From NCBI RefSeq assembly GCF_040024445.1, contig NZ_CP157276.1, positions 248,001 to 312,000 on the forward strand: a DNA stretch of 64,000 nucleotides, written 5' to 3'. Made by a program: the position numbers and the translations under genes. The stretch's first letter is position 1, and each line of letters opens with the position of its first letter. Origin of the DNA: Prescottella soli. GTDB lineage: Bacteria > Actinomycetota > Actinomycetes > Mycobacteriales > Mycobacteriaceae. A model generated the notes under the pieces. The model was not told where the DNA came from and made no database searches. It saw nothing but the letters and a program-made list of their open reading frames with translations. Positions 13,376 to 30,427 of the stretch are shown here, one piece after another.

Positions 13376-14211
13376 GCACGGACGTCGCGTCGGGGGCCGA
13401 GACAGCGCATACAGGGGTAGAAGGTGGGGACGGCCGGGGTTTCCGGGTGCGTCTGCACAACTTCGAGGGTCCGTTCGATCTGCTGCTGACGCTCATCAGC
13501 CAGCACCAGCTGGACGTCACCGAGGTCGCGTTGCACCAGGTGACTGACGAGTTCATCTCCTACACGCGCCGCCTCGGCAGCGAGCTGGGCCTGGATCAGA
13601 CCACCGAATTCCTGGTGGTGGCGGCGACTCTGCTCGACCTGAAGGCCGCGCGTCTGTTGCCCGCCGGTGAGGTGGACGACGACGAGGACCTGGCGCTGCT
13701 CGAGGCGCGCGACCTGCTGTTCGCGCGGCTGCTGCAGTACCGGGCCTACAAGCAGGTGGCGCAGCTGTTCGGTGAGCTGGAGGCGGCGGCGCTGCGGCGG
13801 TATCCGCGGTCGGTGTCGGTCGAGGACCGGTACGTCGACCTGCTTCCGGAGGTGCTGCTCGGGGTCGATCCGCGCCAGTTCGCCGAGATCGCCGCGACCG
13901 CCTTCCGGCCCCGACCGGTCGCCGAGGTGGGACTGGATCACCTCCATGTCCCGACCGTCTCGGTTCCGGAGCAGGCGGCGCGGATCCTCGAACTGCTCCG
14001 GGAGCGTGGTGCCGGCGTGTGGGCGCCCTTCGGTGAGCTGATCGCCGAGTGCGAGGTCCCCGTGCAGATCGTGGCCCGTTTCCTGGCGCTGCTCGAGCTG
14101 TATCGGGAGCGGTCGGTGCTGTTCGAGCAGCCCGAACCGCTGGGGGATCTGCTGGTGTGCTGGACCGGCGAGGCCGCGGCCGCGCCCGCGAGCGAGGAGG
14201 ACTACGGATGA
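13372..14211 (+). CDS. scpA: Segregation and condensation protein ScpA
   Basis: This 279-residue kleisin bridges the heads of SMC dimers. The diagnostic N-terminal segment FEGPFDLLLTLISQHQLDVTE begins at about residue 28, and the C-terminal winged-helix part binds SMC. The GTG start overlaps the ParA-like gene and the stop overlaps scpB (ATGA), giving an intact condensin accessory module. Confidence 0.95.
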   Translation: MSTDVASGAETAHTGVEGGDGRGFRVRLHNFEGPFDLLLTLISQHQLDVTEVALHQVTDEFISYTRRLGSELGLDQTTEFLVVAATLLDLKAARLLPAGEVDDDEDLALLEARDLLFARLLQYRAYKQVAQLFGELEAAALRRYPRSVSVEDRYVDLLPEVLLGVDPRQFAEIAATAFRPRPVAEVGLDHLHVPTVSVPEQAARILELLRERGAGVWAPFGELIAECEVPVQIVARFLALLELYRERSVLFEQPEPLGDLLVCWTGEAAAAPASEEDYG

Positions 14212-14906
14212 CGTCCGTCGACACCGAGGACCTGAGCCCGTTCGAGGACGAGTTCGCGGAGATGACCGACGACCGCCTGGCGGGCGCGCTCGAGTCGATG
14301 CTGCTGGTGGTCGACTCGCCGGCGTCGTCGGCGATGCTCGCCGACGCGCTGGGCGAGTCCGAGGCGAGGGTCGAGACGATGCTGCGCACGATGTCCGACG
14401 GCCTCACCGCCCGTGGCAGCGGCATCGACCTGCGGTTCGCGGGGGACGGGTGGCGCTTCTACACGCGCACCGAGTACGCACCGTACGTCGAGCGTTTGCT
14501 GCTCGACGGCGCCCGATCGAAGCTGACCCGCGCAGCGCTCGAGACGCTCGCGGTGATCGCCTACCGGCAGCCACTCACCCGGGCGCGGATCAGCGCCGTT
14601 CGCGGCGTCAACGTCGACGGCGTCATCCGCACCCTGCTGGCCCGCGGACTGATCACCGAGGCCGGCCCGGACCCGGAGACCAACGCGACCACGTATGCGA
14701 CCACCGAGATGTTCCTCGAACGCCTCGGACTGGCGTCACTTGCGGATCTGCCGCCCCTCGCGCCCCTGCTTCCCGACGTAGATGTGATCGATGACATCAC
14801 CGAGAGTCTCGAAGCCGATCCGCGATTTGCGAGAATGGACAGGACGAGTTCGTCAATGGGATCCGGAGCAAAGGCCTCCGACCCCGAGCTCGACATCGAA
14901 AACTGA
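14208..14906 (+). CDS. scpB: Segregation and condensation protein ScpB
   Basis: This 232-residue protein has tandem winged-helix domains that bind ScpA. Recognisable segments are LAGALESMLLVVDSPAS, LTRAALETLAVIAYRQPLTRA and ISAVRGVNVDGVIRTLLARGL. It overlaps scpA by 4 nt and is followed after 15 nt by the pseudouridine synthase gene, an actinobacterial order shared with Rv1709-Rv1711. Confidence 0.95.
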   Translation: MTSVDTEDLSPFEDEFAEMTDDRLAGALESMLLVVDSPASSAMLADALGESEARVETMLRTMSDGLTARGSGIDLRFAGDGWRFYTRTEYAPYVERLLLDGARSKLTRAALETLAVIAYRQPLTRARISAVRGVNVDGVIRTLLARGLITEAGPDPETNATTYATTEMFLERLGLASLADLPPLAPLLPDVDVIDDITESLEADPRFARMDRTSSSMGSGAKASDPELDIEN

Positions 14907-14921
14907 CAGGGATCCAAAAAA

Positions 14922-15884
14922 GTGAACAAGCCCGCTCGCCGTGATGGCACACCGGACCGTAAGAAGAAGCAGCCCGCCAAGGGTGCTGCACGCTCGACCG
15001 CTGCGAACAAGCAGCTGAACAAGCGGGGCAAGCCGAAGTCGGCCAAGCCCCAGCGCGCCCAGACCCAGGCGCAGACTCCCAAGATCAGCAACGCGAAGCC
15101 CGCGAAGCACCAGTACGCCGACATCGACCGCGACCTCGCGCCCATGAAGGGCGACGGCGTGCGGTTGCAGAAGGTCCTCGCACAGGCCGGAGTCGCCTCC
15201 CGACGCGCCGCCGAGGAACTCATCGACCAGGGCCGCGTCGAGGTCGACGGCCGCATCGTCCTCGAGCAGGGCCTGCGGGTCGACCCCGAGAACGCGGTCG
15301 TCCGCGTCGACGGTATCCGCGTCGTCGTGAAGAAGGATCTGGTCCACATCGCACTGAACAAGCCGCGGGGCTGGCAGTCCACGATGTCCGACGACCTCGG
15401 ACGCCCGTGCATCGGCGACATCGTCTCCGAACGCGTCTCCGCCGGTCAGCGCCTCTTCCACGTCGGTCGTCTCGACGCCGACACCGAGGGACTGATCCTG
15501 CTGACCAACGACGGTGACCTCGCGCACCGGCTGATGCACCCGTCGTACGAGGTGCCGAAGACGTACCTGGCCACCGTGCAGGGTGTCGTCGACCGCAGCG
15601 TCGGCAAGACCCTCAAGGCCGGCGTCGAGCTCGACGACGGGCCGGCGAAGGTCGACGCGTTCCAGCTCCTCGACATCAACGGTGGCAAGTCGCTGGTCAA
15701 GATCGTCCTGCACGAGGGCCGCAAGCACATCGTGCGCCGCCTCCTCGACGCCGTCGGACACCCGGTGGTGCGGCTGGTCCGCACCGACATCGGCAACGTC
15801 GCGCTCGGCGACGGCCGTCCCGGCACCCTGCGGGTCCTCGGCCGCGGCGAGGTCGGCGGCCTCTACGGGGCGGTGGGTCTGTGA
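14922..15884 (+). CDS. rluB: 23S rRNA pseudouridine synthase, RluB/RsuA family
   Basis: This 320-residue protein has a Lys/Ala/Gln-rich basic N-terminal tail (1 to about 75), an S4 domain ([21 protein letters not shown]) and an RsuA/RluB catalytic domain. The catalytic Asp is in [19 protein letters not shown]. It is predicted to isomerise uridine in the 23S peptidyl-transferase region. Start GTG 14922 follows AGGGATCC. It overlaps cmk by 4 nt. The long basic extension is common in actinobacterial members. Confidence 0.92.
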
Positions 15885-16573
15885 CCACACCGACCCCACT
15901 GGTCGTCGCGATCGACGGACCGTCGGGCACCGGTAAGTCCAGCGTGTCCCGCCGGGTGGCGAAGAGTCTGGGTGCGCGCTACCTCGACACCGGCGCGATG
16001 TACCGGATCGCGACGCTGCACGTGCTGCGCCGCGGCGTCGACATCGGTGATCCGGTAGCCGTCGCCGAGGCGACGTCGTCGCTGCCGCTGTCGATCGGCA
16101 CCGATCCCGACGCGGACGGCGTGCGACTGGCCGGCGAGGACGTCACCGACGAGATCCGCGGCGCGGCCGTCACGCAGGCCGTGTCGGCGGTGTCCGCGGT
16201 GCCAGACGTGCGGACGTTCCTGGTGGATCTGCAGCGGCGCATCGTGGAGCAGGCCGGGCGCATCGTCGTCGAGGGCCGCGACATCGGCACCGTCGTGCTG
16301 CCGGACGCCGACGTGAAGATCTTCCTGACGGCCTCCGCGGAGGCCCGGGCCATGCGGCGCAACGCCCAGAACATCGCGGAAGGACGCGGAGACGACTTCG
16401 CCGCAGTCCTCGCCGACGTGCAGCGCCGCGACCACCTCGATTCCACCCGCGCGGTATCTCCGTTGCGTCCGGCGGAGGATTCGGTGACGGTGGACACGAG
16501 CGAACTGGGTATCGAAGACGTGATCGGCAGGTTGCTGCTGGTGGTAGGCGACAGAACTGGAGCAGTGCAGTGA
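15881..16573 (+). CDS. cmk: Cytidylate kinase
   Basis: This 230-residue (d)CMP kinase has the P-loop [15 protein letters not shown] at about 10-24, the CMP-binding YLDTGAMYR segment and [11 protein letters not shown]. It phosphorylates CMP and dCMP with ATP. It overlaps rluB upstream and der downstream by 4 nt each, as in Rv1711-Rv1713. Confidence 0.96.
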
Positions 16574-18012
16574 CCGACGGTTATGTAGGAGATTCGACGG
16601 CGACCGAGTACGCCGGAGACGGAATCTGGAGCGAGGAGTCCGACTGGGACCTCGCCGATTTCCTCGACGGTGAGGACGCCGAGGAGCACCTCGCGGTACC
16701 GACACTCGCGGTGGTCGGACGGCCGAACGTCGGCAAGTCCACGCTCGTCAACCGCATCATCGGCCGTCGTGAGGCGGTCGTCGAGGACATCCCCGGTGTG
16801 ACGCGCGACCGCGTCTCGTACGACGCCAACTGGGCCGGACGCCGGTTCATGGTGCAGGACACCGGCGGCTGGGAGCCCGACGCCAAGGGCCTGCAGCAGT
16901 CAGTGGCGCGTCAGGCCGAACTGGCGATGAACACCGCGGACGCGATCCTGCTCGTGGTCGACGCCGTCGTCGGTGCCACGGGGACGGACGAGGCTGCCGT
17001 TCGGGTGCTGCGCCGGTCGAAGACACCGGTGATCCTCGTCGCGAACAAGGTCGACGACGCCCGTACCGAGGCGGAGGCTGCGGCCCTGTGGTCGCTCGGC
17101 CTGGGCGAGCCGTACATGGTCAGTGCCACGCACGGTCGCGGCACCGGTGATCTGCTCGACGAGGTCCTCCGGGTCCTTCCGGAGACCCCGCGCGAGGGCA
17201 CCGGCGGCACCGGCCCCCGCCGGGTGGCGCTCGTCGGCAAGCCGAACGTCGGCAAGTCGAGCCTGCTCAACAAGCTGTCCGGTGACGAGCGCTCGGTGGT
17301 CCACGACGTTGCGGGCACCACCGTCGACCCCGTCGACTCGCTCGTCGAGCTGGGCGGCAAGGTGTGGAAGTTCATCGACACCGCCGGCCTGCGCAAGAAG
17401 GTCAACCATGCCAGCGGTCACGAGTTCTATGCGTCGCTGCGGACCAAGGGCGCGATCGAGGCCGCCGAGGTCGCGATCCTCCTGATCGACGCGTCGAAGC
17501 CGATCACCGAGCAGGACCTGCGCGTCCTGAGCATGGTGGCCGAGACGGGTCGTGCGCTGGTGCTCGCCTTCAACAAGTGGGACCTGGTCGACGAGGACCG
17601 GCGTCTGATGCTCGAGAAGGAGATCGACCGCGAACTGGTCCGCGTGCCGTGGGCGCAGCGGGTCAACATCTCCGCGCACACCGGTCGGGCCGTCCAGAAG
17701 CTCGTTCCTGCGCTCGACACGGCGCTGGAGTCGTGGGACAAGCGCATCCCGACCGGACGCCTCAACAACTGGCTCAAGGAGGTCGTGGCGGCCACGCCGC
17801 CGCCGATGCGTGGTGGACGCCTGCCCCGCATCATGTTCGCGACCCAGGCCGGCACCCGTCCGCCGACATTCGTGTTGTTCACCACGGGCTTCCTCGAGGC
17901 CGGCTACCGCCGCTTCCTCGAGCGTCGCCTGCGTGAGGAGTTCGGCTTCGACGGCAGCCCCGTGCGCATCTCGGTGCGCGTGCGGGAGAAGCGGGACCGC
18001 CGCAGCCGCTGA
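16570..18012 (+). CDS. der: Ribosome-assembly GTPase Der (EngA)
   Basis: This 480-residue protein has two GTPase domains in tandem and a C-terminal KH-like domain. The first G1 is [15 protein letters not shown] (about 53) with DTGGW and NKVDD; the second G1 is [15 protein letters not shown] (about 220) with DTAGL and NKWDL. It acts in 50S subunit maturation. An acidic N-terminal extension of about 45 residues is typical of actinobacteria. The ATG/GTG overlap with cmk makes it the last gene of the block. Confidence 0.96.
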
Positions 18013-18195
18013 CCGACGGCGCTGTCGCACAGGTTGCCCAGAGCACACGGGAATTCGACGCGGATTCGGTGTGTGACGGTCGCAAAACCGGTGCGACAGC
18101 GCCTCAGTGGGGTCGTCCAGGGCTGCTGACCAGGCGATTCGCTTTCCCTGGCGACACTGTTGTAATCTTCTGAGGCGCCCGAACGAGGGCGTGGA

Positions 18196-18269
<74 letters not shown>

Positions 18270-18277
18270 CCGACGAG

Positions 18278-18310
18278 AACCCAGGTGAAGATCCTTTCAC
18301 CTGGGTTTCT
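18278..18310 (+). terminator. Terminator after tRNA-Pro
   Basis: A stem of about 12 bp (AACCCAGGTGAA / TTCACCTGGGTT) with a short loop is followed by TCTTGCTGTCC. It ends the tRNA transcript and faces the converging benzoylformate decarboxylase-like gene. Confidence 0.8.
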
Positions 18311-18392
18311 TGCTGTCCGGCGCCGGTTCCGGTCGGAGATCGACCGCACGTGAGCGGTGGCGGCGTGGGCGATACGCGGGTGCGCGCCGGAA

Positions 18393-20009
18393 TCAGCCCA
18401 GATGCGCCAACTCCGGTTCAGTCGGCACCACGATGACAGTGGGCCCATCGGCTTCGAGTGCGGAGGTGAACGCCTCGGCGAGCTTCTCGGTGGTGTCCAC
18501 GTTGACCGACCGGCACCCGAAACCCTCTGCGATGGAGGCGATGTCGAGGCCGGGCAAGTCCAGTCCGGGCACCCCCGGTGTCTTCTCCAGCAGGGCGAAC
18601 GCCTTGAGGATCGAATACTCCGCGTTGCGCAACACCACGAACACGACCGGCAGGCGGTGTTGGGCCGCCGTCCATATCGCCTGCACCGAGTATTGGAACG
18701 ATCCGTCGCCGATGGTCGCGACCACGGTGCGCTTCACCCCGCGGGCGCGGTCGCCGAGCGCGATGCCCACCGCCGCGGGTACGCCCCAGCCGATCCCACC
18801 GCTGGCGGTCGCGAAGAACGAACCGGTACGGGTCGTGGGCAGCCACCGGACCTGTTGGGCCATCGTGGATGTCGATTCCGTAACCAGCGGAGCGTCTGCC
18901 GGCTTCACGGTACCCAGCGTCGAGAACACCGCGGCCGGCGTCAGGGGCGAGGACTCGGCGTCGGCGATGTCGTGGCCACCCACCGACGTGGTCATGGCGG
19001 GCACGCTGCTCCGGTCATCAACCATGCCCGCGAGCTGCTCCAACGCCAACCGCGCGTCGCCGAGCACGCTGTCGCCGACCGGCGCGGCTCCGGCCATCGT
19101 CGGATCCGACGTGATCTGCAGCAGTTCGGTACCCGTGGGCAGGTACTCACCGGGCACGTAGGGGTAGTAGCGGAAGACCTGCGCTCCGATCACGAGGACC
19201 AGGTCGTGGCCCTGCAGAGCCTCGTTGACGCCCGCGATGGTCATCGGGAGCTGCCCCTGGTACAGGCTGTGATTCTCGGGAAAGGACACTCGGTCGGGAA
19301 GCGGGCCGCTGTACACCGGCGCCCCGAGTTTCTCGGCGAGGGCCACGCCGGCATCCCAGGCGTGGCTGCGATCAACCTCGGGCCCGAAGACCAGGAGTGG
19401 CCGCTGCGCGCGGTTGACGCGATCCGCGAATCCACGCAGGCGCTCGGCATCCGGGCTGATTCGATCGCTCACCGTCCTGACTACCGCGGACCCTTCGGCC
19501 GGCTTGTCCCAGTCGTCGAGCGGGATGGACAGAAACACCGGACCCGCCGGCGGCTGCAGAGCGACCGCGTAGGCGCGCATGAACGCGGCCGGCACGTCCT
19601 CTGCGCGCGCGGGTTGATAGGCCCACTTGACCCAGGGCATCGGCAGCAGGGTTTCGTCGCGGTTCGTCAGGTACGGGTCGCACAGGACCATCTCGCGCGT
19701 CTGCTGACCGGCCGTGACGATCAGTGGCGTGTTTCCCTTGGACGCGGCCACCAGGCTGCCCATCGCGTTCCCGGTTCCGGCGCCGGTATGCACGTTGACC
19801 AACGCCGGCCTGCCCGTGGACTGTGCGAACCCGTCGGCCATGGCCAGCACCGACGCTTCCTGCAACCCCAGCACGTAGGTGAAGTCGTCAGGGAAACGCT
19901 TCAGGAACGTCTGCTCGGTGGAGCCCGGGTTTCCGAATACGGTGGTCAATTCCAGCGAACGCAGCAGATCGTAGGTGACTTCTTGGACGGTTTTCTCATT
20001 CTTCGTCAT
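18393..20009 (-). CDS. mdlC: Thiamine-diphosphate enzyme, benzoylformate decarboxylase-like
   Basis: This 538-residue ThDP-dependent decarboxylase aligns over its whole length with Pseudomonas benzoylformate decarboxylase. Matching residues are Ser30 (VFGNPGSTEQ, Ser26 in MdlC), the ThDP-activating Glu51 (LGLQEAS), His74 (VNVHTGAGTGNAMG, His70) and the His in FPENHSLYQG (His281). The GDG...N cofactor motif is IGDGSFQYSV. Start ATG 20009 follows GGGAAAGGGA. The likely reaction is benzoylformate to benzaldehyde and CO2, but no mandelate dehydrogenase or benzaldehyde dehydrogenase lies nearby, so the natural 2-oxo acid substrate is uncertain. Confidence 0.85.
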   Translation of the reverse strand: MTKNEKTVQEVTYDLLRSLELTTVFGNPGSTEQTFLKRFPDDFTYVLGLQEASVLAMADGFAQSTGRPALVNVHTGAGTGNAMGSLVAASKGNTPLIVTAGQQTREMVLCDPYLTNRDETLLPMPWVKWAYQPARAEDVPAAFMRAYAVALQPPAGPVFLSIPLDDWDKPAEGSAVVRTVSDRISPDAERLRGFADRVNRAQRPLLVFGPEVDRSHAWDAGVALAEKLGAPVYSGPLPDRVSFPENHSLYQGQLPMTIAGVNEALQGHDLVLVIGAQVFRYYPYVPGEYLPTGTELLQITSDPTMAGAAPVGDSVLGDARLALEQLAGMVDDRSSVPAMTTSVGGHDIADAESSPLTPAAVFSTLGTVKPADAPLVTESTSTMAQQVRWLPTTRTGSFFATASGGIGWGVPAAVGIALGDRARGVKRTVVATIGDGSFQYSVQAIWTAAQHRLPVVFVVLRNAEYSILKAFALLEKTPGVPGLDLPGLDIASIAEGFGCRSVNVDTTEKLAEAFTSALEADGPTVIVVPTEPELAHLG

Positions 20010-20522
20010 CGTGGTGGTCCCTTTCCCGTTGACGAGTCTCAGGTGGCGGGTGATTCCTTTCCCTCTGCGTGAACGCCTTCGAGCAGGCGTGGCCGGACTT
20101 CGCTGATGGTCGGGAAGCAGGGCACCACGTGCCGGAGCGGTGGTTGGTGTCGCGCGCTCAGCCCGGCGGCACGAGTCCCGCCCGCGACGGTCTCTCGGAC
20201 CGGACCGGGCCGGCGCTGTCGACGGGGATGTCGTCGTCGGCCTGTCCGGGCATTGACAACTCCAGTCCGTATTGACTGATCGCGATGCAGGGCTGAACAC
20301 GTCTTCGATGAAATCGACGCCCGCCAGGTGGTGACTCTAATTGGCGTGGATGTTTGGGCAGGTGTCGAAAGTCCAACGAATTGGGTCCAGGCAGACGCCT
20401 GCCCGCCATCGCCAAAGATTGCACGTTCCGGTCATTGCGGACGAAATACTCGTAGTGATTCCGCCTGCAATGTCGACTGGATCATCAATTCGGAGCGCCG
20501 GCGTCATGCCTTCTTCGTGGGG
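20010..20522. other. Intergenic stretch, 513 nt, no credible gene
   Basis: This region lies between two minus-strand genes. Codon bias is absent in all frames, and the part from about 20260 to 20520 is visibly less GC-rich than the surroundings. It should hold the promoter of the decarboxylase gene and the 3' untranslated part of mqo. An inverted repeat (20356-20404) is the only clear structure; a weaker one, ACGCCT/AGGCGT, lies near 20078-20095. Confidence 0.6.
20356..20404 (-). repeat. Inverted repeat, possible mqo terminator
   Basis: The arms GGGCAGGTGTC and GACGCCTGCCC (11 bp with one G-T wobble) enclose a 27-nt loop. It lies about 120 nt downstream of the mqo stop on the minus strand. 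A terminator or processing hairpin is possible; a remnant of a mobile element cannot be excluded. Confidence 0.35.
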
Positions 20523-22013
20523 TCAGCCCGCGGCGGACGCGTCCGGGTCGGCCGCGCATTCTTCGGTGTCGACGGGCGCCGCCCCGAGGCCTGGCATCAA
20601 CCGCTGCAGGGTGGGCTGCCATCGCGCGTGCTCCTCGGGGAAGCACGCCGCGAGGAGGTCCGCCATCAGGGGCGGGGCGATGGACGCGCCGGGCGAGGCC
20701 CCGAGCAGGCCCGCGATCGTGCCGTCGGCGCCGGTGACGATCTCGGTGCCGAACGTCAGGACGCCCACCCTCCTCCGGTCGGGTTTGATCAGCTGCGCCC
20801 GCTGTCCCGCCTGGATCAGGTCCCAGTCGACCGGATCGGCGGTGGGGTAGAACCGCTCCAGTTCGGCGAACTTCCGTCGGCGGGAGGCGACCAACTGGCC
20901 GATCAGGTACCGCACCAGTCCCAGGTTCTGGATCCCCACGGCCATCAGCGGTGCGACGTTGTGGAAACGGATGGTGGTGAACAGGTCCCGCAGTCGGCCG
21001 TGCTTCAACAGCTTCGTGCTGAAGGTGGCGTAGGGCCCGAACATGAGCGCGGGACGCCCGTCGACGATCCGCCGATCGAGATGCGGCACCGACATCGGTG
21101 GCGCGCCGATCGCCGCCTGTCCGTACACCTTCGCGTCGTGCCGCTCGACCACGTCGGGGTGATCGGTACGGAGGAACTGGGCGCCCAGCGGGAAGACCGC
21201 GTACCCGCGGACCTCGGGGATCCGGGCCTTCTGTAGCAGCTTCAGGGCATATCCGCCGGCGCCGACGAACACGAACCTCGACCGGACGTAAAAGCGGCGC
21301 TTCTCGCGGCGGTCCCGTCCGCCGACGCTCCAGACCCCGTCCGCGGACCGGGACAGGGAGGTCACCTCGTGGTGCGTCCGCACTCGCGCGCCGCGAGCGG
21401 TCATCGTGTTCACCAGCGCGTGAGTCAACGCGCCGAAGTCGACGTCGGTGCCGGCCGTGTGGCGCGTCGCCGCCATCGGCTGGGCGGGATCGCGCCCCTC
21501 GGTGAGCAGCGGCGCCCAGGCCCTGATCGTCTCGGGATCCTCGCTGTACTCCATGTCCGCGAACAGGGGCAGCCGCCGCAGCGTCGCGAAACGCTCACGC
21601 AGATATGCGATGTCGCGTTCGCTGAAGACGACGTCCATGTGCGGTGTCGGATTGACGACGGACCGCGGACCGTCGATGTCACCGTTGTCGACGAGCGCAG
21701 CCCAGAACTGCTGTGAGAGCGCGTACTGGCGTCCGATGTCGGCGGCGCGGGCGGGATCACTCGGATCGGGCATGTAGTTGAGTTCACACAACCCGGCATG
21801 CCCGGTCCCGGCGTTGCTCCACGCGTTCGAACTCTCCTGGGCTGGGCCGTCGAGCCGTTCGAGCATCACGATCGACCAGTCCGGCTGCAGCGTGGACAGC
21901 AGCGCGCCGAGCGTCGCGGACATGATGCCGCCCCCGATGAGGACGACGTCCAGAATGTCCTCTGCGGCATCGCGCTCACCGCGCAGGGGCGCGAGCTGTT
22001 CGAGCGGACACAC
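20523..22013 (-). CDS. mqo: Malate:quinone oxidoreductase, 5' end abuts a LysR remnant
   Basis: This FAD-dependent, membrane-associated enzyme oxidises malate to oxaloacetate and reduces quinone. The FAD motif DVVLIGGGIMSATLGALL, the family segments DGPAQESSNAWSNAGTGHAG and VFVGAGGYALKLL, and the C-terminal LLGASPGASIAPPLM are all present. Homology to Mqo begins abruptly at the Asp codon 21950-21948. Upstream, the frame runs through the antisense of a LysR gene with no ATG and no Shine-Dalgarno sequence. The first usable start is GTG at 22013 (about 496 residues), which lies inside the LysR remnant. The usual native leader of roughly 10 residues appears lost. It may be expressed from the GTG or be defective. 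Confidence 0.8.
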   Translation of the reverse strand: MCPLEQLAPLRGERDAAEDILDVVLIGGGIMSATLGALLSTLQPDWSIVMLERLDGPAQESSNAWSNAGTGHAGLCELNYMPDPSDPARAADIGRQYALSQQFWAALVDNGDIDGPRSVVNPTPHMDVVFSERDIAYLRERFATLRRLPLFADMEYSEDPETIRAWAPLLTEGRDPAQPMAATRHTAGTDVDFGALTHALVNTMTARGARVRTHHEVTSLSRSADGVWSVGGRDRREKRRFYVRSRFVFVGAGGYALKLLQKARIPEVRGYAVFPLGAQFLRTDHPDVVERHDAKVYGQAAIGAPPMSVPHLDRRIVDGRPALMFGPYATFSTKLLKHGRLRDLFTTIRFHNVAPLMAVGIQNLGLVRYLIGQLVASRRRKFAELERFYPTADPVDWDLIQAGQRAQLIKPDRRRVGVLTFGTEIVTGADGTIAGLLGASPGASIAPPLMADLLAACFPEEHARWQPTLQRLMPGLGAAPVDTEECAADPDASAAG

Positions 22014-22697
22014 GGCCTGGTGGGTGCGCTCGACGACGCGCTCGGAGTCGTCCGGCGCAACGCCGATCCCGAGGGAGGCCTCGTGCGCTTCGGCTTTCCG
22101 CTCACGCTCGGGCCGGTGAGCATTCCGTCGGTGCTCGCGGAATTCCATGCAGCGGCGCCGCGGATCCGGCTCCATCTGGTCCAGGCGCACGGTGATGCGC
22201 TCGCCGGGATGGTGCGAGACGGCCGACTCGACCTGGCGGTGATGATCCCGCCGCCGGAAGACCTGCCCGTGGTCGTCCTCGGCCGTCAGGCGATCCACCT
22301 GCACGTCGCGGATACCCATCGATTCGCGGGCCGGGCGCAGGTCGACCTGGCCGAACTCGCGGACGAGGCGTTCATCGCGAACCCGCCGTCCTACCATCTG
22401 CGTCAGCTCGTCGACTCGTGGTGCGCCGAGGCGGGATTCACCCCGCGGGTGTCGTTCGAGATCACCGAGTTCGAGACGATCAGGGCGCTGGTCGGACACG
22501 GATTGGGCGTCGCGCTGCTGCCGACCGCGGAGACGCCGCACGGGGGCGTCGTGGCCGTCCCGCTCGAGGGTGCGCGCGAGCGCAGCATCGGGCTGGCGTC
22601 GGGACATCACCGGCCGACGCCGGCAGTGTCACGCCTGCGCGATCACCTCGTCGACCGCGCGTCCGCCTTCGCCGGCCGCCTGCAGGTCGGTGGGTGA
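21966..22697 (+). pseudogene. LysR-family regulator lacking its DNA-binding domain
   Basis: Recognisable LysR sequence starts at the tail of the helix-turn-helix domain (GIALTAQGRELFERTHGLV) and continues through the complete effector-binding domain (about 230 residues, including VRFGFPLTLGPVSIP and DLAVMIPPPEDLPVV) to a stop at 22697. The first 50-60 residues that normally hold the winged helix-turn-helix are absent: that DNA is occupied on the other strand by the conserved start of mqo. No start codon with a ribosome-binding site is evident. A deletion between about 21950 and 21966 is the simplest explanation. The remnant could at most make a free effector domain. Confidence 0.75.
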
Positions 22698-22943
22698 TGT
22701 GCCGCGCCCTGCACCGTGGACCGCACGTCGCACTCCGTCGATCGCGTCCGGCCACGTCCGAAATGCCTCGACCAGCGTGTAATTCGCGGAACCCGGGCAT
22801 CGCCACACGCCCCACTGGCCGGACTGTGCGCCGGTTCGGATCTTCCGAACCGCCCATCGAGCAGGGGAGCCGACCACGAGATCGGGCAGGCCGAGCAGTC
22901 GGCGCATGCGGTCGTAGGGGATAGGCTCGTTCAACGCCGACAC
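22629..22943 (-). CDS. Small hypothetical protein, doubtful
   Basis: This possible 104-residue protein starts at GTG 22943 (VSALNEPIPYDRMRRLLGLP), 7 nt after the stop of the DUF732 lipoprotein gene. It fills the gap between that gene and the LysR remnant, overlapping the remnant's 3' end by 69 nt in antisense. Codon third positions are moderately GC-rich, as in real genes here. There is no Shine-Dalgarno sequence and no recognised domain, so it may be noncoding. Confidence 0.3.
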   Translation of the reverse strand: MSALNEPIPYDRMRRLLGLPDLVVGSPARWAVRKIRTGAQSGQWGVWRCPGSANYTLVEAFRTWPDAIDGVRRAVHGAGRGTSPTDLQAAGEGGRAVDEVIAQA

Positions 22944-22950
22944 TGGTGCG

Positions 22951-23439
22951 TCAGGCGAACTCGGGGCAGTACGCGACCGTCGCGGCGCCCAGGACGTTGG
23001 CGACCTCGGCCCTGGTGTAGCGGCCGTCGCCCAGGTATTCGGCGGTGAGGTCGGGCTTGCTCTCACCGCGATACAGGGAGTTGCACATCGACAGGCCGAG
23101 CCTGATCTGGTCGCTCTCGGGCTTCTCCATGAGCGTGAATTCGGTGATGTACGACAGGAACAGCAGATCCTCGGGGCCGAGGGCGTCCATCGGCGCGGCG
23201 TCGGGGGTGACGCCGGGCGCCGGGGGAGTCGAGGTTTCGGTGACCACCGCTCGGGCGGGTGCCGACGTGGTCGGGACGTGACGCGGGGTCGCCGATACCC
23301 TGTGCGACGTCGTCGGATCCGGGGTCGTCCGGGCGATGACGACGGGTTCGCTGTCGGTGGGGGTGCTGCTGCACCCGGTGATGGCCAGAAGGGAGCCGGA
23401 GAGCGCGAGGAGGAGGCCGAGCCGGGTGGAGCGAGTCAC
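22951..23439 (-). CDS. DUF732 lipoprotein
   Basis: This is a 162-residue predicted lipoprotein. The signal peptide ends in the lipobox ITGC with Cys23 as lipid attachment site. A Thr/Pro-rich linker (about 25-85) follows, and the C-terminal DUF732 domain (about 95-162, FLSYITEFTL...TRAEVANVLGAATVAYCPEF) has its two conserved cysteines. DUF732 is common in mycobacteria and relatives, is exported and has no known function. The start is GTG 23439; an upstream extension of the frame lacks a signal peptide and was rejected. Confidence 0.8.
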   Translation of the reverse strand: MTRSTRLGLLLALSGSLLAITGCSSTPTDSEPVVIARTTPDPTTSHRVSATPRHVPTTSAPARAVVTETSTPPAPGVTPDAAPMDALGPEDLLFLSYITEFTLMEKPESDQIRLGLSMCNSLYRGESKPDLTAEYLGDGRYTRAEVANVLGAATVAYCPEFA

Positions 23440-23495
23440 GATGCGAGATCTTGCCCTACCAGGGCGACAAGATCGTTGGCGGGTCGGCGGTCGGA

Positions 23496-23960
23496 TCAGT
23501 TGGAGTCCGGGCGCACGACTGGCATGAACACCTCGGTCCGCGGTCGCGGCGTATCGGGGGCGTCGAGATAGGACTCCCAGGGCTCGCCCACGGTCGCGTA
23601 TCCGTGCTCGCTGATCCACTGTGTCAGAGCGACATACGCCGATTCGACGGTGTCATAGCCGCCGGCGTGAACCGTGCAGGCGCACGGCCCGGCCGGCAGC
23701 GACGCCGACTCGACCGGACCCGCCTCGACGAGGTCGCGCTCGAGCGGGAACCCGGCCTCGATGTTCCAGCGGTCGCCCGGCAGCGGCAGGAACCGTCCGA
23801 ACGGGGGGCCGACGATCTCGACGCCCTGATCCGTCGCGGCGCGGGCGACGGCGTCGAAGGCTGGCCCCAGGAAGGCGGGGATCGCCTCGACCGTGACGGC
23901 GCCCCGCACGATCGCGGCGGGCTGCTCCGGCAGATCGCGAATCCGGATGTCGTAGTTCAT
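23496..23960 (-). CDS. GyrI-like effector-binding domain protein
   Basis: This 154-residue single-domain GyrI/AraC-type effector-binding protein starts MNYDIRIRDLPEQPAAIVRG and contains WNIEAGFPLERDLVEAGPV and LPAGPCACTVHAGGYDTVESAYVAL, typical of the SOUL/GyrI-like fold that binds small hydrophobic ligands. There is no DNA-binding domain. The ATG overlaps the stop of the upstream secreted-protein gene by 4 nt, so the two are translated together and may share a pathway. Ligand is unknown. Confidence 0.82.
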   Translation of the reverse strand: MNYDIRIRDLPEQPAAIVRGAVTVEAIPAFLGPAFDAVARAATDQGVEIVGPPFGRFLPLPGDRWNIEAGFPLERDLVEAGPVESASLPAGPCACTVHAGGYDTVESAYVALTQWISEHGYATVGEPWESYLDAPDTPRPRTEVFMPVVRPDSN

Positions 23961-25222
23961 CGTCGGTCTCCCTCGAAACAGCCCGCGTAACCCCGCATCT
24001 CGACGGTCGCCGTCGAGCAGTACGTCACTTCGGGGTAGTAGGCACCCATCGTGGCCGCCGGATCGGTGCCGTCCGCCTGCGACGCCTGGATCGATGTGGG
24101 ATAGAACGCCGCCGTGGGCAGCATGTTCCGCAGGATGAGGAGCTTCTTCGGCACGTCCGTCGAGCCCCACGGCAGCACGGTCACCGTCGGATCCACGTTC
24201 GAGGGAACGTCGCCGGGGGCCGCCACGACGTACGTGTACCGGCCGTCGGCGCCCCGATCGGTCTGGAAGTCGGCCGCGCACGCCACCACCGGGTACGGCG
24301 AGACGAGGTCGTTCTGGCACATCGACCAGTAGCGCACCTGCTGTCCGGGCTCGGTGGGAGACGCACCGGCGCGTGTGTCCGGGAAAACGGGTGCCCGGCC
24401 CCGCACCACCGCGACCCGTCCCGGCTGATACGTCAGCACGGCTCCGATGTACTTGTTGTCGCCGTTGGGAAACAGGCCCGACGTGCTCGCGGGATTCACG
24501 AACGTGGCCTCGGGGGTGTCCGCGCGGAACGCGCCCGACGCGGCCCGCTCGATCGCGCGGTCGACGACCCACTGTCCGGCGTCGGCGACGGGGGCGGGCA
24601 GCGTGCGCGGATCGAACGGCTGGGCACATGGCTGGACGGGGGTCGTCGTCCCGCCGAGTCGGTAGGCGAACTGCGGGAGTGGGACACCGCCACTCGGCGA
24701 CGCGGGATCGTCCGGCACGTACACGCGGATGATCAGGAACCCGACGGGTGGGCCGCCGTCGCGCAGCGCGCGGATCTCGTTGCGCTCGTGGTCGGCCGGA
24801 CCGGTCACGAGGGTCGCGTGCCGCCGGCGCTGCTCCGGCGGGAGCACCTGTGCCGCGGGATCGGCGAAGGGGTTGCCGCTGCCGGAGTCGGGCAGGATCT
24901 GGTCGTCCCGCAGGGTGTCGGTGGTGTCGAGGTCGGTGCCGTAGGTGTTGAGCGAGAAGTACCGCGCCGACGGGTACGTGCCGGACACCTCGATCGAGTC
25001 GTTCGCCCCGAGGGCATATGGCAACACCCAGTAGGTCGCGTTCTCGTCGGGGAAGGCCACGTCGAGTACGTCGCCGTCGGACATGAATCGCCACGCGCAG
25101 GGCGTCGGACCCGCAGGCTTGGCGGCGGCCGCGTCGACGACGACGGCCGCGGGCACGGCGGCGACGACACACAGGAGGACGCGCGACAGGCGGCGGACGA
25201 TCGATCGCGGTGACGTGCGCAT
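23957..25222 (-). CDS. Secreted protein of unknown function, 421 aa
   Basis: An N-terminal signal peptide (RRLSRVLLCVVAAVPAAVVV, then an Ala-rich stretch around residues 30-35) predicts export. The mature part has features of surface or periplasmic proteins of the DUF1254/DUF1214 type (YWVLPYALGANDSIEVSGTYPSARYFSLNTYG and NDLVSPYPVVACAAD), with several Cys that could form disulfides. No catalytic motif is certain. It overlaps the GyrI-like gene by 4 nt and is divergent from the NUDIX gene (92-nt shared promoter region). Confidence 0.7.
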   Translation of the reverse strand: MRTSPRSIVRRLSRVLLCVVAAVPAAVVVDAAAAKPAGPTPCAWRFMSDGDVLDVAFPDENATYWVLPYALGANDSIEVSGTYPSARYFSLNTYGTDLDTTDTLRDDQILPDSGSGNPFADPAAQVLPPEQRRRHATLVTGPADHERNEIRALRDGGPPVGFLIIRVYVPDDPASPSGGVPLPQFAYRLGGTTTPVQPCAQPFDPRTLPAPVADAGQWVVDRAIERAASGAFRADTPEATFVNPASTSGLFPNGDNKYIGAVLTYQPGRVAVVRGRAPVFPDTRAGASPTEPGQQVRYWSMCQNDLVSPYPVVACAADFQTDRGADGRYTYVVAAPGDVPSNVDPTVTVLPWGSTDVPKKLLILRNMLPTAAFYPTSIQASQADGTDPAATMGAYYPEVTYCSTATVEMRGYAGCFEGDRR

Positions 25223-25314
25223 CTGGGCCCCAATCGCAGGCTCCCACGATAACGAGACCGCTGTCCCGGTGGGGCATGATCGGTCGAACGACGGTCGGGG
25301 TGCAGGAGGCGGAC

Positions 25315-25932
25315 ATGACGAACACGGCGAAGCTCACCCGCGCGGACATCGAATCGCGATTGCGGGCCTTCGACGCCCGGACGGAGCCGCTGGAAGACCG
25401 GCGCGCGGCAGCCGTCGTGATCGCGGTGATGGCCGGCGACGACGGCGTCCCAGTGTTCCCGCTGACCCTGCGGCCGTCGAAGATGCGGGCCCACGCAGGA
25501 CAGTTCGCGCTGCCGGGCGGCCGCCTCGACGACGGCGAGACGGCCCGCGACGCGGCGCTGCGGGAACTGCGTGAGGAACTCGGCATCGGCGTCGGCCCCG
25601 ACGACGTGCTGGGGCGCCTCGACGACTACGTGACCCGCTCGGGCTACGTCATGACACCGTTCGTGGTGTGGTCGAAGGATTCGGTGGACGCCCTCGTGCC
25701 GAACCCCGACGAGGTGGCGCACGTGTTCGCGGTTCCGTTGGGGGAGCTCGACGTGCCGACCCGGTTCGTCGAGATCCCCGGATCACCGGAACCGGTCGCG
25801 TGCTGGCCGTTCCGCGGCGAACACATCCACGCACCGACGGGGGCGGTGATCCACCAGTTCTGCGAGGTCGTCCTGCACGGCCGCCCGACCCGGGTCGGGG
25901 ATCTGGCGCAGCCGAGCTTCGCGTGGCGCTGA
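25315..25932 (+). CDS. NUDIX hydrolase, CoA pyrophosphatase type
   Basis: This 205-residue NUDIX hydrolase has GGRLDDGETARDAALRELREELGI as the NUDIX box and the preceding LTLRPSKMRAHAGQFALPGG segment typical of the coenzyme A diphosphatase subgroup. Expected products are 4'-phosphopantetheine and 3',5'-ADP. ATG 25315 has a perfect AGGAGG 7 nt upstream, which fixes the start and rejects longer in-frame starts. Confidence 0.88.
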   Translation: MTNTAKLTRADIESRLRAFDARTEPLEDRRAAAVVIAVMAGDDGVPVFPLTLRPSKMRAHAGQFALPGGRLDDGETARDAALRELREELGIGVGPDDVLGRLDDYVTRSGYVMTPFVVWSKDSVDALVPNPDEVAHVFAVPLGELDVPTRFVEIPGSPEPVACWPFRGEHIHAPTGAVIHQFCEVVLHGRPTRVGDLAQPSFAWR

Positions 25933-25974
25933 AATCCCGGGCGGAGGGCCCCGCCCGCGACTAGCGTCGAGGCC

Positions 25975-27006
25975 GTGACGATCCTCCGATCGGTCCTGCA
26001 CGCCGTCGACCGCACCGGCATCGAACCGGTCGCGTGGCGGCCGCCGCCTGCCCCGGCCGAGACGGGACTGTTCGCACCGAGTCGGGAACTCGACGCCGCG
26101 CAGCAGTGGAAGCTGCCCACCGGACGCGGCCCCGAGGACGTCGCGGTCGACGGCGACGGGCGCGTGATCACCGGCGGCGACGACGGGAGGATCTGGCGGT
26201 TCGACGCCGACGGCCGTGCCACCGAACTCGCCCACACCGGCGGGCGTCCGCTCGGTGTCGAGGTGCTGGACGACGGGCGCTTCCTCGTCTGCGACAGCCG
26301 ACGGGGCGTGCTGCGGGTGGACGAGACCGGGCGTGTGGAGGTACTCGCCGACGAGGCGCTCGGTCGACCGCTGTTGGCGTGCAACAACTCCGCCGTCACG
26401 CGCGACGGCGTCGTCTACTTCACCGACTCGTCGTCACGGTTCACGGTCGAGGACCACCGACTCGACATGCTCGAGCACAGCGGCACCGGCCGGCTGCTGC
26501 GCTTCGACCCGCGCACGGGGGAGATGGATCTGCTTGCGGACGGCCTCCAGTTCGCGAACGGGGTCGGTCTCGCTCGCGACGAGTCGTACGTGGTCGTCGC
26601 GGAGACCGGCTCGTACCGGATCCAGCGCGTCGAGCTGACCGGACCGCGCACGGGGACCGTGTCGGTGTGGGCGGACAATCTGCCCGGGATCCCCGACAAC
26701 GTCACCTCGCAGACCGCCGACGGCATCTTCTGGGTCGCGCTCTACAGCCCGCGGATGCGACTGCTGGACGGGATGGCGCCGTATCCGGGACTGCGGGTGC
26801 TCGCCGCGAACCTGCCGAGCGTCGTGCAACCGGATCCGGAACGCCGGGCGTGGGTACTCGGTCTCGACGACGGCGGGCGCGTGGTCCTAAGTCTGCAGGG
26901 CGCGAAGGGCAGCTACTCGCCGGTGACTGGTGTGCGCGAGACACCCGACTGGATCTACCTCGGCAGCATCACCGCCGGATCCATCGCGCGGGTGCCGCGG
27001 ACCTGA
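25975..27006 (+). CDS. SMP-30/strictosidine synthase-like beta-propeller protein
   Basis: This 343-residue protein is of the six-bladed beta-propeller type. Blade-like repeats (EDVAVDGDGRVITGGDDGRIWRFD) precede the strictosidine synthase-like core VVVAETGSYRIQRVELTGP and WADNLPGIPDNVTSQTADG. Relatives are lactonases or hydrolases of plant, animal and bacterial origin; the substrate cannot be predicted. There is no signal peptide. The start is GTG 25975, 42 nt after the NUDIX gene, so cotranscription is likely. Confidence 0.8.
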   Translation: MTILRSVLHAVDRTGIEPVAWRPPPAPAETGLFAPSRELDAAQQWKLPTGRGPEDVAVDGDGRVITGGDDGRIWRFDADGRATELAHTGGRPLGVEVLDDGRFLVCDSRRGVLRVDETGRVEVLADEALGRPLLACNNSAVTRDGVVYFTDSSSRFTVEDHRLDMLEHSGTGRLLRFDPRTGEMDLLADGLQFANGVGLARDESYVVVAETGSYRIQRVELTGPRTGTVSVWADNLPGIPDNVTSQTADGIFWVALYSPRMRLLDGMAPYPGLRVLAANLPSVVQPDPERRAWVLGLDDGGRVVLSLQGAKGSYSPVTGVRETPDWIYLGSITAGSIARVPRT

Positions 27007-27124
27007 CCGGTCCGCTGACTGGCAGGCCTGAGCAAAGTCGCCTCCGAACGGTCGGTTCCTGAAATGGGACACCGGGTGTGGAAAGCTGGCCACCGACAGC
27101 GGACGGGACCCGAGAGGATTGTTG

Positions 27125-27748
27125 GTGGACGCGGTAGGGCAGCAGAAGTCCGGCTCGAAGCAGGGCGAAGATCGCATCCTGACCGTCCCGAACCTCCTCA
27201 GCATGGTGAGGCTCGCCGGCGTGCCGCTGTTCCTGTACCTGCTGCTGGGCCCGCATGCGGACGGCTGGGCGCTCGCGATCCTCATACTCAGCGGCTTCAC
27301 CGACTGGGCCGACGGCAAGCTCGCCCGTCTGCTGAACCAGACGTCGCGACTCGGCGCGCTCCTGGACCCGTTCGTCGACCGGCTGTACGTGATCACGACG
27401 CTGATCGCGTTCGTCCTACGCGACATCATCCCGTGGTGGGTGGCCGCGATCCTGATCGGCCGCGACCTGATCCTGGCGTTGACGCTGCCGATCTACCGCC
27501 GTCGTGGACTCCCACCGCCCGAGGTCATCTACCTCGGCAAGGCCGCGACGTTCGCGCTGATGTTCGCGATGCCGCTGGTGCTGGCGGCACAGGGTGACTG
27601 GGGCATCGCGGGCGTGGCACACGCGTGGGGGTACGCGCTGCTGATCTGGGGGACCGTCCTCTACGTGTGGACCGGGGGCCTGTACATCGCCAAGGCCGTC
27701 GACGTCGCACGCACGGTGCCGCCGACGGTCGCACGGAGCGGCCCGTGA
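27125..27748 (+). CDS. pgsA: CDP-alcohol phosphatidyltransferase (PgsA2-like)
   Basis: This 207-residue integral membrane enzyme has the complete CDP-alcohol phosphotransferase signature DG-x2-AR-x8-G-x3-D-x3-D in DWADGKLARLLNQTSRLGAL followed by LDPFVD. About five membrane helices follow. It occupies the position of M. tuberculosis Rv1822 (pgsA2) ahead of the DUF881-Sbp-DUF881 genes. Substrate (glycerol-3-phosphate, phosphatidylglycerol or another alcohol) is not decided by sequence. I chose GTG 27125, 6 nt after AGAGGA; TTG 27119/27122 are alternatives. It overlaps the next gene by 4 nt. Confidence 0.88.
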   Translation: MDAVGQQKSGSKQGEDRILTVPNLLSMVRLAGVPLFLYLLLGPHADGWALAILILSGFTDWADGKLARLLNQTSRLGALLDPFVDRLYVITTLIAFVLRDIIPWWVAAILIGRDLILALTLPIYRRRGLPPPEVIYLGKAATFALMFAMPLVLAAQGDWGIAGVAHAWGYALLIWGTVLYVWTGGLYIAKAVDVARTVPPTVARSGP

Positions 27749-28611
27749 CGGGGACCCCGCGGCAGGTGCGGCGGAATCCGGTTCCGTCGCTGCTGAAGTC
27801 GCTCATGAACGATCACCTCGATCCCGGGTACGCGGGGGCCGCCGAGGACCGGGCGCAGGGGCACACGAAGCCGACGCGGGTCGGCGCCGTTTCCTGGATC
27901 GCCGTGGGTGCGGCGCTGGTCGGGCTGGTCTTCGGCGTCGCCTACGCGCAGGCGTCGTCCTCTGCGAGCGACGCCGACCAGACCCGGACCGAGATGCTGA
28001 CCAAGGTCCGGGCGGCCGAGGAACGCGGTCGCAGCCTCGCCGGGAACCGCGACGATCTCACCGTCCGGGTCGACGACCTGCGGGCGAGCGTCCTCGCAGG
28101 TGACGCGGAGGGTGCCGAGGTTCTCGACCAGCTGCACACCCTCGAGGCGGCCGCCGCCGGCGAACCGGTACACGGACCCGGACTGGTCGTCACCCTGACC
28201 GATCCTGCCGCGCGCCCCGACCTGTCCGACTCCTCGCAGCGGGTATCCGGATCGCCGCAGGCCGGCGTCCTGGACCGCGACCTGCAGTCCGTCGTGAACG
28301 CTCTGTGGGCGAGCGGCGCCGAGGCGGTCGCGGTCGGTGACGTGCGCGTCGGACCGGCCGTCACCATCCGCCAGGCAGGCGGCGCGATGCTGGTCGACAA
28401 CCAGCCCGTGCCGTCGCCGTACCGGGTGTCCGCGATCGGACCACCGGCGAAACTGCAGACCGGATTCGTCGTCAGCGACGCCTACCTGCGGATGTCGACC
28501 GTCCAACAGCTGTACGGCGTGGGTTTCACCATCGCCGAGTCCGACGACCTGCGGCTACCCGGCGCGGCAGGTCGCGAAACGAGGTTCGCACAGGAAACGG
28601 GGGCACCGTGA
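27745..28611 (+). CDS. DUF881 membrane-anchored protein (first copy)
   Basis: This 288-residue protein has a cytoplasmic tail of about 50 residues, one membrane helix (VSWIAVGAALVGLVFGVAYA), a coiled-coil segment and the extracytoplasmic DUF881 domain (GPGLVVTLTDPAA...VVNALWASGAEAVAVGDVRV...YRVSAIGPP). It corresponds to Rv1823. DUF881 proteins flank sbp across actinobacteria and firmicutes and are thought to act near the division or cell-wall machinery; the role is unproven. GTG 27745 overlaps the pgsA stop. Confidence 0.82.
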   Translation: MTGTPRQVRRNPVPSLLKSLMNDHLDPGYAGAAEDRAQGHTKPTRVGAVSWIAVGAALVGLVFGVAYAQASSSASDADQTRTEMLTKVRAAEERGRSLAGNRDDLTVRVDDLRASVLAGDAEGAEVLDQLHTLEAAAAGEPVHGPGLVVTLTDPAARPDLSDSSQRVSGSPQAGVLDRDLQSVVNALWASGAEAVAVGDVRVGPAVTIRQAGGAMLVDNQPVPSPYRVSAIGPPAKLQTGFVVSDAYLRMSTVQQLYGVGFTIAESDDLRLPGAAGRETRFAQETGAP

Positions 28612-28967
28612 AGACCGTCAAAGGCGGATACGCGCTCTATGGAGTGCTCGCGCTCGTCGCCGGCATCGTGGTCGGGATTCTGTTCAGCCCGCAGGTGCCC
28701 GACGCCGTCCAGCCCTATCTGCCGATCGCGGTGGTCGCGGCGCTCGACGCCGTGTTCGGGGGGCTGCGCGCCTACCTCGACGAGATCTTCGACTCGAAGG
28801 TCTTCGTCGTCTCGTTCGTGTTCAACGTCCTCGTCGCGGCCCTGATCGTGTGGCTCGGCGATCAGCTCGGCGTCGGAACTCAGCTGTCGACCGCGATCAT
28901 CGTCGTGCTCGGAATTCGGATCTTCGGCAACGCCGCAGCCCTGCGCCGGCGCCTGTTCGGGGCGTGA
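28608..28967 (+). CDS. sbp: Small basic membrane protein Sbp (DUF1290)
   Basis: This 119-residue protein with three hydrophobic helices contains the family signature LDAVFGGLRAYLDEIFDSKVF. It is the Rv1824 counterpart, enclosed between two DUF881 genes with 4-nt overlaps at both ends. Bacillus Sbp is encoded in the division cluster next to ftsAZ. Function is unknown; a complex with the DUF881 neighbours is inferred from gene order. Confidence 0.85.
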   Translation: MKTVKGGYALYGVLALVAGIVVGILFSPQVPDAVQPYLPIAVVAALDAVFGGLRAYLDEIFDSKVFVVSFVFNVLVAALIVWLGDQLGVGTQLSTAIIVVLGIRIFGNAAALRRRLFGA

Positions 28968-29767
28968 CGCGCATGCAGGACAACGAAGTACGCCCCGACG
29001 CACTCGCCGACGACACCGCGGAACAGCGCACGGAGGGCCGGCACGAGATGCCGCCGCCGGCGCCCACCCGCACCCGCCGCCGGTTCGGGTTCGGATTGCT
29101 GGCGGTGCTGCTCATGGCAGCCCTCGGCGTCGGGATCGCGACGCAGGTCAGCAGCACCGGATCGGGCGACAACCTCGACTCGGCGCGGCCCGCGGACCTG
29201 CTCGCAGTTCTGGGCAACCTCAACCAGCGCGAGGCCGCGCTGCGGCAGGAGGTCGCCGGTCTGGAACAGACGCTGTCGAAGCTCGAGGCCGGTGGTGGCA
29301 GTTCGAGCGCGGCCCTCGACGAGGCGAAGTCCCGGCTCGCGGCGCTGTCGATCCAGGTGGGGACCGTCGCCGCGACCGGCCCCGGCGTCGTGCTCACCAT
29401 CGCGGACCCGGGCAAGTCGGTCGGCTCGGAGGTGCTGCTCGACCTCGTCCAGGAATTGCGCGCCGCGGGTGCCGAGGCCATCGAGATCAGTGGCGCGGGA
29501 TCCGACCCGATCCGGATCGGCGTCGACTCCTGGGTGAGCGGCAGCGGCGGAAACGTCACCGTCGACGGGCGGAAGGTGTCGGCCCCGTTCCGTGTGGTCG
29601 CGATCGGCGATCCGCCGACGCTGGCGGCCGCGCTGAACATCCCCGGCGGAGTCGTCGACACCGTCGCACGCAGCGGCGGACAGCTCCGGATCGAGCAATC
29701 CCCGCAGGTCACGGTCACCGCCTTGCGGGAGATCAAACCGCGCCAATACGCTCAACCCGGAAACTGA
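28964..29767 (+). CDS. DUF881 membrane-anchored protein (second copy)
   Basis: This 267-residue paralogue of the gene two positions upstream has a proline-rich cytoplasmic tail, a membrane helix (FGFGLLAVLLMAALGVGIAT), a coiled coil (LNQREAALRQEVAGLEQTLS) and the DUF881 domain (GPGVVLTIADPGK...QELRAAGAEAIEISG). It is the Rv1825 counterpart. GTG 28964 overlaps the sbp stop; an in-frame ATG 9 nt later is a possible alternative start. Confidence 0.82.
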   Translation: MTRMQDNEVRPDALADDTAEQRTEGRHEMPPPAPTRTRRRFGFGLLAVLLMAALGVGIATQVSSTGSGDNLDSARPADLLAVLGNLNQREAALRQEVAGLEQTLSKLEAGGGSSSAALDEAKSRLAALSIQVGTVAATGPGVVLTIADPGKSVGSEVLLDLVQELRAAGAEAIEISGAGSDPIRIGVDSWVSGSGGNVTVDGRKVSAPFRVVAIGDPPTLAAALNIPGGVVDTVARSGGQLRIEQSPQVTVTALREIKPRQYAQPGN

Positions 29768-29810
29768 TCTTCGATCCGGTCGCCGGATCGTCCCCCGAAA
29801 GGAAGCCACC

Positions 29811-30215
29811 GTGAGTGAGCTCGCTACGCCTGCCGATCTGCGCTACACAGAGGAGCACGAATGGGTGCGGCGTACCGGTCCGACGACGGTGCGTGTGGGC
29901 ATCACCGATTTCGCGCAGTCGCAGCTCGGCGACGTGGTGTTCGTGCAGCTTCCCGCGGAGGGCGAGGACGTGGCCGCCGGCGACTCGTTCGGTGAGGTCG
30001 AGTCGACCAAGAGCGTGTCCGACATCTACGCGCCGCTCAGCGCGAAAGTCGTTGCGGTCAACGGTGAGCTGGACGCCAACCCCGAGCTGGTGAACAGCGA
30101 GCCCTACGCCGGTGGATGGCTCGTGGACCTCGAGGTGGCGTCCGAGGCGGCGCTGGACGAGGCGCTCGCCGGAACGCTGGATGCCGACGCGTACCTCGCG
30201 GTTTCCGGGAGCTGA
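29811..30215 (+). CDS. gcvH: Glycine cleavage system H protein
   Basis: This 134-residue lipoyl carrier shuttles the aminomethyl group between GcvP, GcvT and dihydrolipoamide dehydrogenase. Lipoylation occurs at Lys67 in GEVESTKSVSDIYAP. Length and fold segments (YTEEHEWVR, GITDFAQSQLGDVVFVQLP) are standard. GTG 29811 has GAAAGGAAG upstream. It is separated from gcvP by garA, two MerR genes and a nuclease gene, and no riboswitch precedes it here. Confidence 0.95.
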   Translation: MSELATPADLRYTEEHEWVRRTGPTTVRVGITDFAQSQLGDVVFVQLPAEGEDVAAGDSFGEVESTKSVSDIYAPLSAKVVAVNGELDANPELVNSEPYAGGWLVDLEVASEAALDEALAGTLDADAYLAVSGS

Positions 30216-30427
30216 TTTTCCGTCGGTTTCGCGGGTATTCGCCCGGCCTGTCCACCTACACGCACCGGCACTCTCAGGGTACGGTCAAGGTGAGCGCAGT
30301 GCCGTGTCGGTTGTTCATATCCGCATCGGAATGTGATCGTGGCCGAGATTCGTCTGGGCCGAGTTGTATCGCGTGACCTTGGGGCTCGGAAAGGGCTCCC
30401 GGGTCGTCGGACTGAGGAGGAGAAACG

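Follow-up and report, generated by a model that had tools for sequence, protein, structure and literature searches.

The lysR–mqo pair in relatives and in the window

The closest counterpart of the locus analysed here is the intact lysR–mqo pair of Prescottella, Rhodococcus and Nocardia, for example in P. agglutinans (L032) and P. defluvii (L034), where a gene for malate:quinone oxidoreductase (Mqo) lies divergently to a gene for a LysR-family regulator. A narrow literature search returned no report of such a LysR–mqo pair. Deletions between short direct repeats, which arise by slippage or microhomology end joining, are the second point of reference. The stretch of DNA under study, referred to as the window, comprises 64,000 nucleotides (G000:C1:248001-312000) of a 5.48 Mb genome assembled as a single contig. 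It has the gene pair and its divergent orientation in common with the intact loci; DNA identity to the two nearest relatives is 85–92%, and with these it has the flanks in common as well. Unlike the intact loci, it lacks about 317 bp that hold the 5' ends of both genes and the whole intergenic region.

The intact pair, which the initial annotation had proposed to look for by alignment with related genomes, was found in 9 of 13 relatives from the same genus (G001–G005, G007, G008, G010 and G011), where each gene has its 5' end. The remaining four (G006, G009, G012 and G013) carry only a second, conserved mqo paralogue. The accessory mqo is thus absent from 4 of 14 genus genomes and therefore dispensable in the genus. 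Surroundings of the pair were compared in five relatives. G003 and G001, the two nearest, have it at the chromosomal place where it lies in the window. In G002, G007 and G008 the 20-kb surroundings match the window in the two genes only, so the pair there lies elsewhere or in altered surroundings. In a wider sample, the gene for this LysR was found beside mqo in 69 of 80 named loci, these being the best 80 of 282 confirmed stretches; six of the nine genus loci with the pair are also among the 69. Every one of the 69 gave a helix-turn-helix match, although some matches cover only residues from about 23–27 on. The 11 named loci without such a LysR belong to Microbacterium (nine) and Frigoribacterium (one) or, in the case of L080, sit at a contig end. 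Two irregularities were noted in the relatives. The mqo of G003 is split into two frames, which is likely a sequencing error and not parallel decay, as the same assembly also breaks der, an essential gene; together the breaks in this assembly (L112, L023) suggest uncorrected sequencing indels. The mqo match of G005 contains a single TAG, which falls at codon 459, close to the C-terminus, and was read as the natural stop.

In the window, the 5'-truncated accessory mqo occupies 20523–21970 on the minus strand. Its frame is open down to the stop at 20523–20525, the first stop being codon 475 if the count starts at the Val that follows Asp 21950. Mqo homology begins at the Asp codon 21950–21948 (PF06039, E 1.3e-188, 20526–21947), which is where the initial annotation had set it. 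The protein passes the family cut-offs (PF06039 627.9 bits, cut-off 27; TIGR01320 601.6, cut-off 549.95), with most finer NCBIfam Mqo models remaining below their own cut-offs, e.g. NF003612 at 710.2 against 742. It is 89% identical to Mqo of G001 over query residues 1–457, and the most similar proteins among the named relatives (best 80 of 282) are those of P. agglutinans (86%) and of the record titled P. defluvii SampleD3_15 (CP121458.1, L057; 89%), which places the organism in the Prescottella cluster (Rhodococcus equi group). The other P. defluvii record, L034, reaches only 74%, and by these identities the title of CP121458.1 may be wrong. Neither a native start nor a ribosome-binding site of its own is found at the truncated gene, as had been claimed, yet the native-like codons A-A-E-D-I-L are retained upstream of Asp-Val-Val.

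The lysR remnant lies at 21964–22697 on the plus strand. Its effector-domain homology begins at about 21964–21969, in agreement with the position near 21966 given initially. The C-terminal effector domain is present (PF03466, 149.2 bits) and the remnant is 92% identical to residues 59–306 of the G003 protein. The domain profile search returned no HTH_1 match in the window LysR protein. The earlier view that the whole DNA-binding domain is missing was slightly too strong: HTH_1 spans residues 16–72 in the intact proteins of G003 and G001, and residues 1 to 62–64 are gone, i.e. most of the domain but not all of it. Frame breaks are absent from both remnants.

The deletion junction and the sequences removed

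The two genes are not separated by 15 nt, as first proposed, but overlap in a single 7-bp GCGGCAT at 21964–21970. In G003 this heptamer is present twice, 317 bp apart, at L023:3833 (mqo codons 12–14) and at 4150 (lysR codons 63–65), with no further copies in the 6-kb locus. The distance from the mqo Val codon to the LysR Ile codon is 339 bp in both G003 and G001 and 22 bp in the window, which is 317 bp fewer. The mqo-side match to G003 reaches 21970 while the lysR-side match starts at 21949, with identities of 92% and 91%, respectively. Flanking the repeat, 60 of 64 bases on the left and 62 of 64 on the right are identical to G003; extending either flank across the repeat drops the identity to 9/30 and 14/30. 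The repeat thus stands at both ends of the missing segment in G003 and as one copy at the window junction, the pattern of a deletion between short direct repeats. Enumeration of all 78,184 placements of deletions joining mqo and lysR in G003, with equivalent placements counted separately, gave microhomology of at least 7 bp in 57. By eye, no exact GCGGCAT was seen at either end of the G001 locus, and the presence of both copies in the window's own ancestor is for this reason inferred from G003 and the window. The junction itself was not found in any of the 9 genus loci with the pair or the 69 named loci (best 80 of 282). A single deletion joining two divergent genes, as had been suggested, is supported by the intact pair in 9 of 13 relatives, by the repeat and by the fact that 0 of the 69 named LysR genes lacks a helix-turn-helix match.

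Measured on G003, the mqo side lost its ATG, the first 11 codons and the GAGGGAGGG Shine-Dalgarno sequence, the lysR side lost about the first 62–64 of 306 residues including most of HTH_1, and the 89 bp between both start codons are gone. Aligning 23 loci (two of them, L031 and L050, from one and the same genome) revealed a conserved intergenic motif consisting of ATCCGTCCAATGA followed about 15 bases on by TATNATCCNNATATGGAT, the last part of which overlaps the lysR ATG. It is seen between lysR and mqo in L023–L031 and in named loci such as L033–L061. All pair-bearing relatives but G010, hence 8 of 9, have exactly one occurrence of the pattern ATCCGTCCAAYG-N14-24-ATCC, located between the two genes; counted over all 13 relatives, 8 have one occurrence. 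The window's genome has none, and the reversed pattern, used as a control, has no occurrence in any of the 14 genus genomes. Among the named loci with LysR, 46 of 69 contain ATCCGTCCAA somewhere (best 80 of 282 stretches). Counts depended on the regular expression used for the two-part motif: a stricter version matched 0 of 80 named loci (best 80 of 282) and 0 of 9 genus loci in spite of the motif in the alignment, whereas relaxing it gave matches in 41 of the 69 named loci (drawn from the same best 80 of 282) and 6 of the 9 genus loci. Judged from conservation and position, we infer that the motif is a candidate LysR operator. A TATNAT just 5' of the lysR ATG suggests by its spacing that the lysR transcript may be leaderless.

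Backup routes, decay and expression of the remnants

A search for a second mqo, proposed at the outset, identified the conserved paralogue in the window genome at C1:1000853-1002232. It belongs to the Mqo family like the truncated copy, to which it is 50% identical. Unlike that copy it has its 5' end, within an open frame of 560 aa that includes an upstream ATG, and its neighbours differ, being an alpha/beta-hydrolase-like gene and a chelatase-like gene, as we presume from the look of their sequences. The paralogue is present in 14 of 14 genus genomes at 49–51% identity. A malate dehydrogenase gene scoring above the TIGR01759 cut-off lies at C1:694292-695251. Malate oxidation thus likely retains two other predicted routes in this genome. 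No second copy of the mqo/lysR pair was found in the window genome by sequence search, nor was the operator-like pattern, and no other LysR comes closer than 39% identity.

The remnants were examined for decay in a three-way comparison of the window, G003 and G001. In mqo (453 codons) the ratio of replacement to silent codons was 9/21 on the window branch and 13/29 on the G003 branch (P 1.0), and in the lysR domain 6/8 and 4/13 (P 0.44). Near-invariant columns gave the same picture, the window deviating in 1 of 127 Mqo columns (82 relatives) and in 0 of 60 LysR columns (44 relatives). This test started from 83 loci; L057 (mqo) and L048 (LysR) were left out on account of split matches, and LysR rows below 55% identity were also excluded. 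Neither approach gave a signal of decay in mqo or in the lysR remnant, and as the remnants are without detectable decay the deletion is probably recent; the same absence of decay also fits an Mqo that still works. The species is represented by one genome, and it may be that only a single strain or culture carries the deletion.

Out of six comparison genes der alone differed between the branches, with 19/40 on the window branch against 3/39 on the G003 branch (P 0.003). The branch labels for der and cmk are not comparable, because both genes lie left of the tRNA, where G001 is the nearer relative. The first 15 or so residues of Der (16570–16620) are strongly unlike those of the two close relatives, between which there is agreement. 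Downstream of tRNA-Pro (18196–18271) a variable stretch spans 18196–20563 and contains a benzoylformate-decarboxylase-like gene on the minus strand (ORF 18393–20300; NF005485 645.6 bits, cut-off 493). The same spot holds about 5.4 kb in G003 and about 2.75 kb in G001, with no blastn match to that gene at E 1e-8, and looks like a tRNA-side variable spot. To its left (13756–18310) the window is 93% identical to P. agglutinans and 90% to G003, while to its right (20563–30216) the values are 88–89% and 92%. This switch of kinship suggests recombination.

We consider it likely that a recent, tolerated deletion of about 317 bp silenced the accessory mqo together with the neighbouring lysR. The deletion would have run between the two GCGGCAT copies, presumably by replication slippage or microhomology end joining, and would have fused the coding parts of the divergent pair, taking with it both start codons, the mqo Shine-Dalgarno sequence, the intergenic region that holds the operator-like motif, and the larger part of the LysR helix-turn-helix. 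LysR is most likely null because its DNA-binding part is lost, and mqo because neither the native promoter region nor the ribosome-binding site is left. The loss was probably tolerated since the window mqo is the accessory copy, with the conserved paralogue and malate dehydrogenase remaining. An ancestral, functional compact arrangement common to a clade has a negligible probability: nothing was found in its favour, and it was seen in 0 of 69 named loci (best 80 of 282) and 0 of 9 genus loci with the pair and is here private to one species. It is also improbable, though less extremely so, that the cell does contain the roughly 317 bp and that they were dropped from the deposited sequence. The evidence is the deposited assembly of one genome of the species; that assembly is a single contig, 99.99% complete with 1.61% contamination, and neither remnant contains frame breaks. 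A 7-bp repeat is too short for collapse in normal assemblies, and biological deletions typically join one repeat to the other; both points speak against an error.

Somewhat less unlikely than such an error, but still doubtful, is that the deletion is real and mqo works, free of its regulator, through transcripts reading in from a DUF732 gene, which lies upstream of mqo on the minus strand and ends at 22951. Translation would then start at GTG 22013 (22011–22013, minus strand), which is in the mqo frame as the initial annotation had placed it, or at a speculative in-frame CTG at 21951–21953 on the same strand, which follows AGAGGA. The GTG would add MCPLEQLAPLRGERDAAEDIL before DVVLIGGG, so that Asp-Val-Val would be preceded by 21 codons, compared with 18 in G003, and the N-terminus would be of near normal length; the Mqo residues are without decay, and the opposing lysR now lacks its promoter region. 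Shine-Dalgarno pairing is weak at the GTG (−2.5 kcal/mol) and better at the CTG (−5.9 kcal/mol), but both fall short of the native starts (−12.7 in G003 and −11.6 in G001). CTG is a rare start codon; a further CTG at 21986 and an ATT at 21956 are other non-standard start-like codons near the junction. Pairing is stronger at ATG 21923 (−8.6 kcal/mol), but this codon is disfavoured as a working start since it lies inside a glycine-rich motif that we take to be FAD-binding, and its product should consequently not work. Between 21900 and 23600 no terminator-like site (0.3 expected by chance) was found, which would favour read-through, and no promoter-like site (0.1 expected by chance, in a scan that excludes other promoter types), which would disfavour expression; both are weak points, because chance alone would give none. 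The fused frame, which joins antisense lysR and mqo into 695 aa (20523–22610, minus strand), is open, which favours this reading. It is a mechanical product of the fusion, and its openness means little because several intact relatives, too, have few stops in the antisense lysR frame (0–6 in the 8 counted). That a newborn Mqo N-terminus, read from the antisense of the former regulator and regulator-free, is naturally expressed is rated slightly lower again than a working mqo in general.

Comparison with known deletions

For annotation, the window mqo should be marked as truncated. On the preferred reading, the silencing of both genes, the locus would illustrate cleanly how a single small deletion spanning a divergent promoter region can remove an enzyme gene along with the regulator next to it while a paralogue remains. 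As a by-product, the survey brought out a widespread actinobacterial LysR–mqo pair with a common operator-like motif. With a second mqo copy open elsewhere in the genome, the case reads as ordinary gene loss caught early, and two freshly silenced genes at an accessory locus of patchy distribution in the genus are most likely just that. As in known deletions between short direct repeats, the window has lost one copy of the repeat along with the DNA between the copies. Set against those cases the deletion is not of an unusual kind, and that it beheaded two genes at once is incidental, a result of its having struck a divergent pair.
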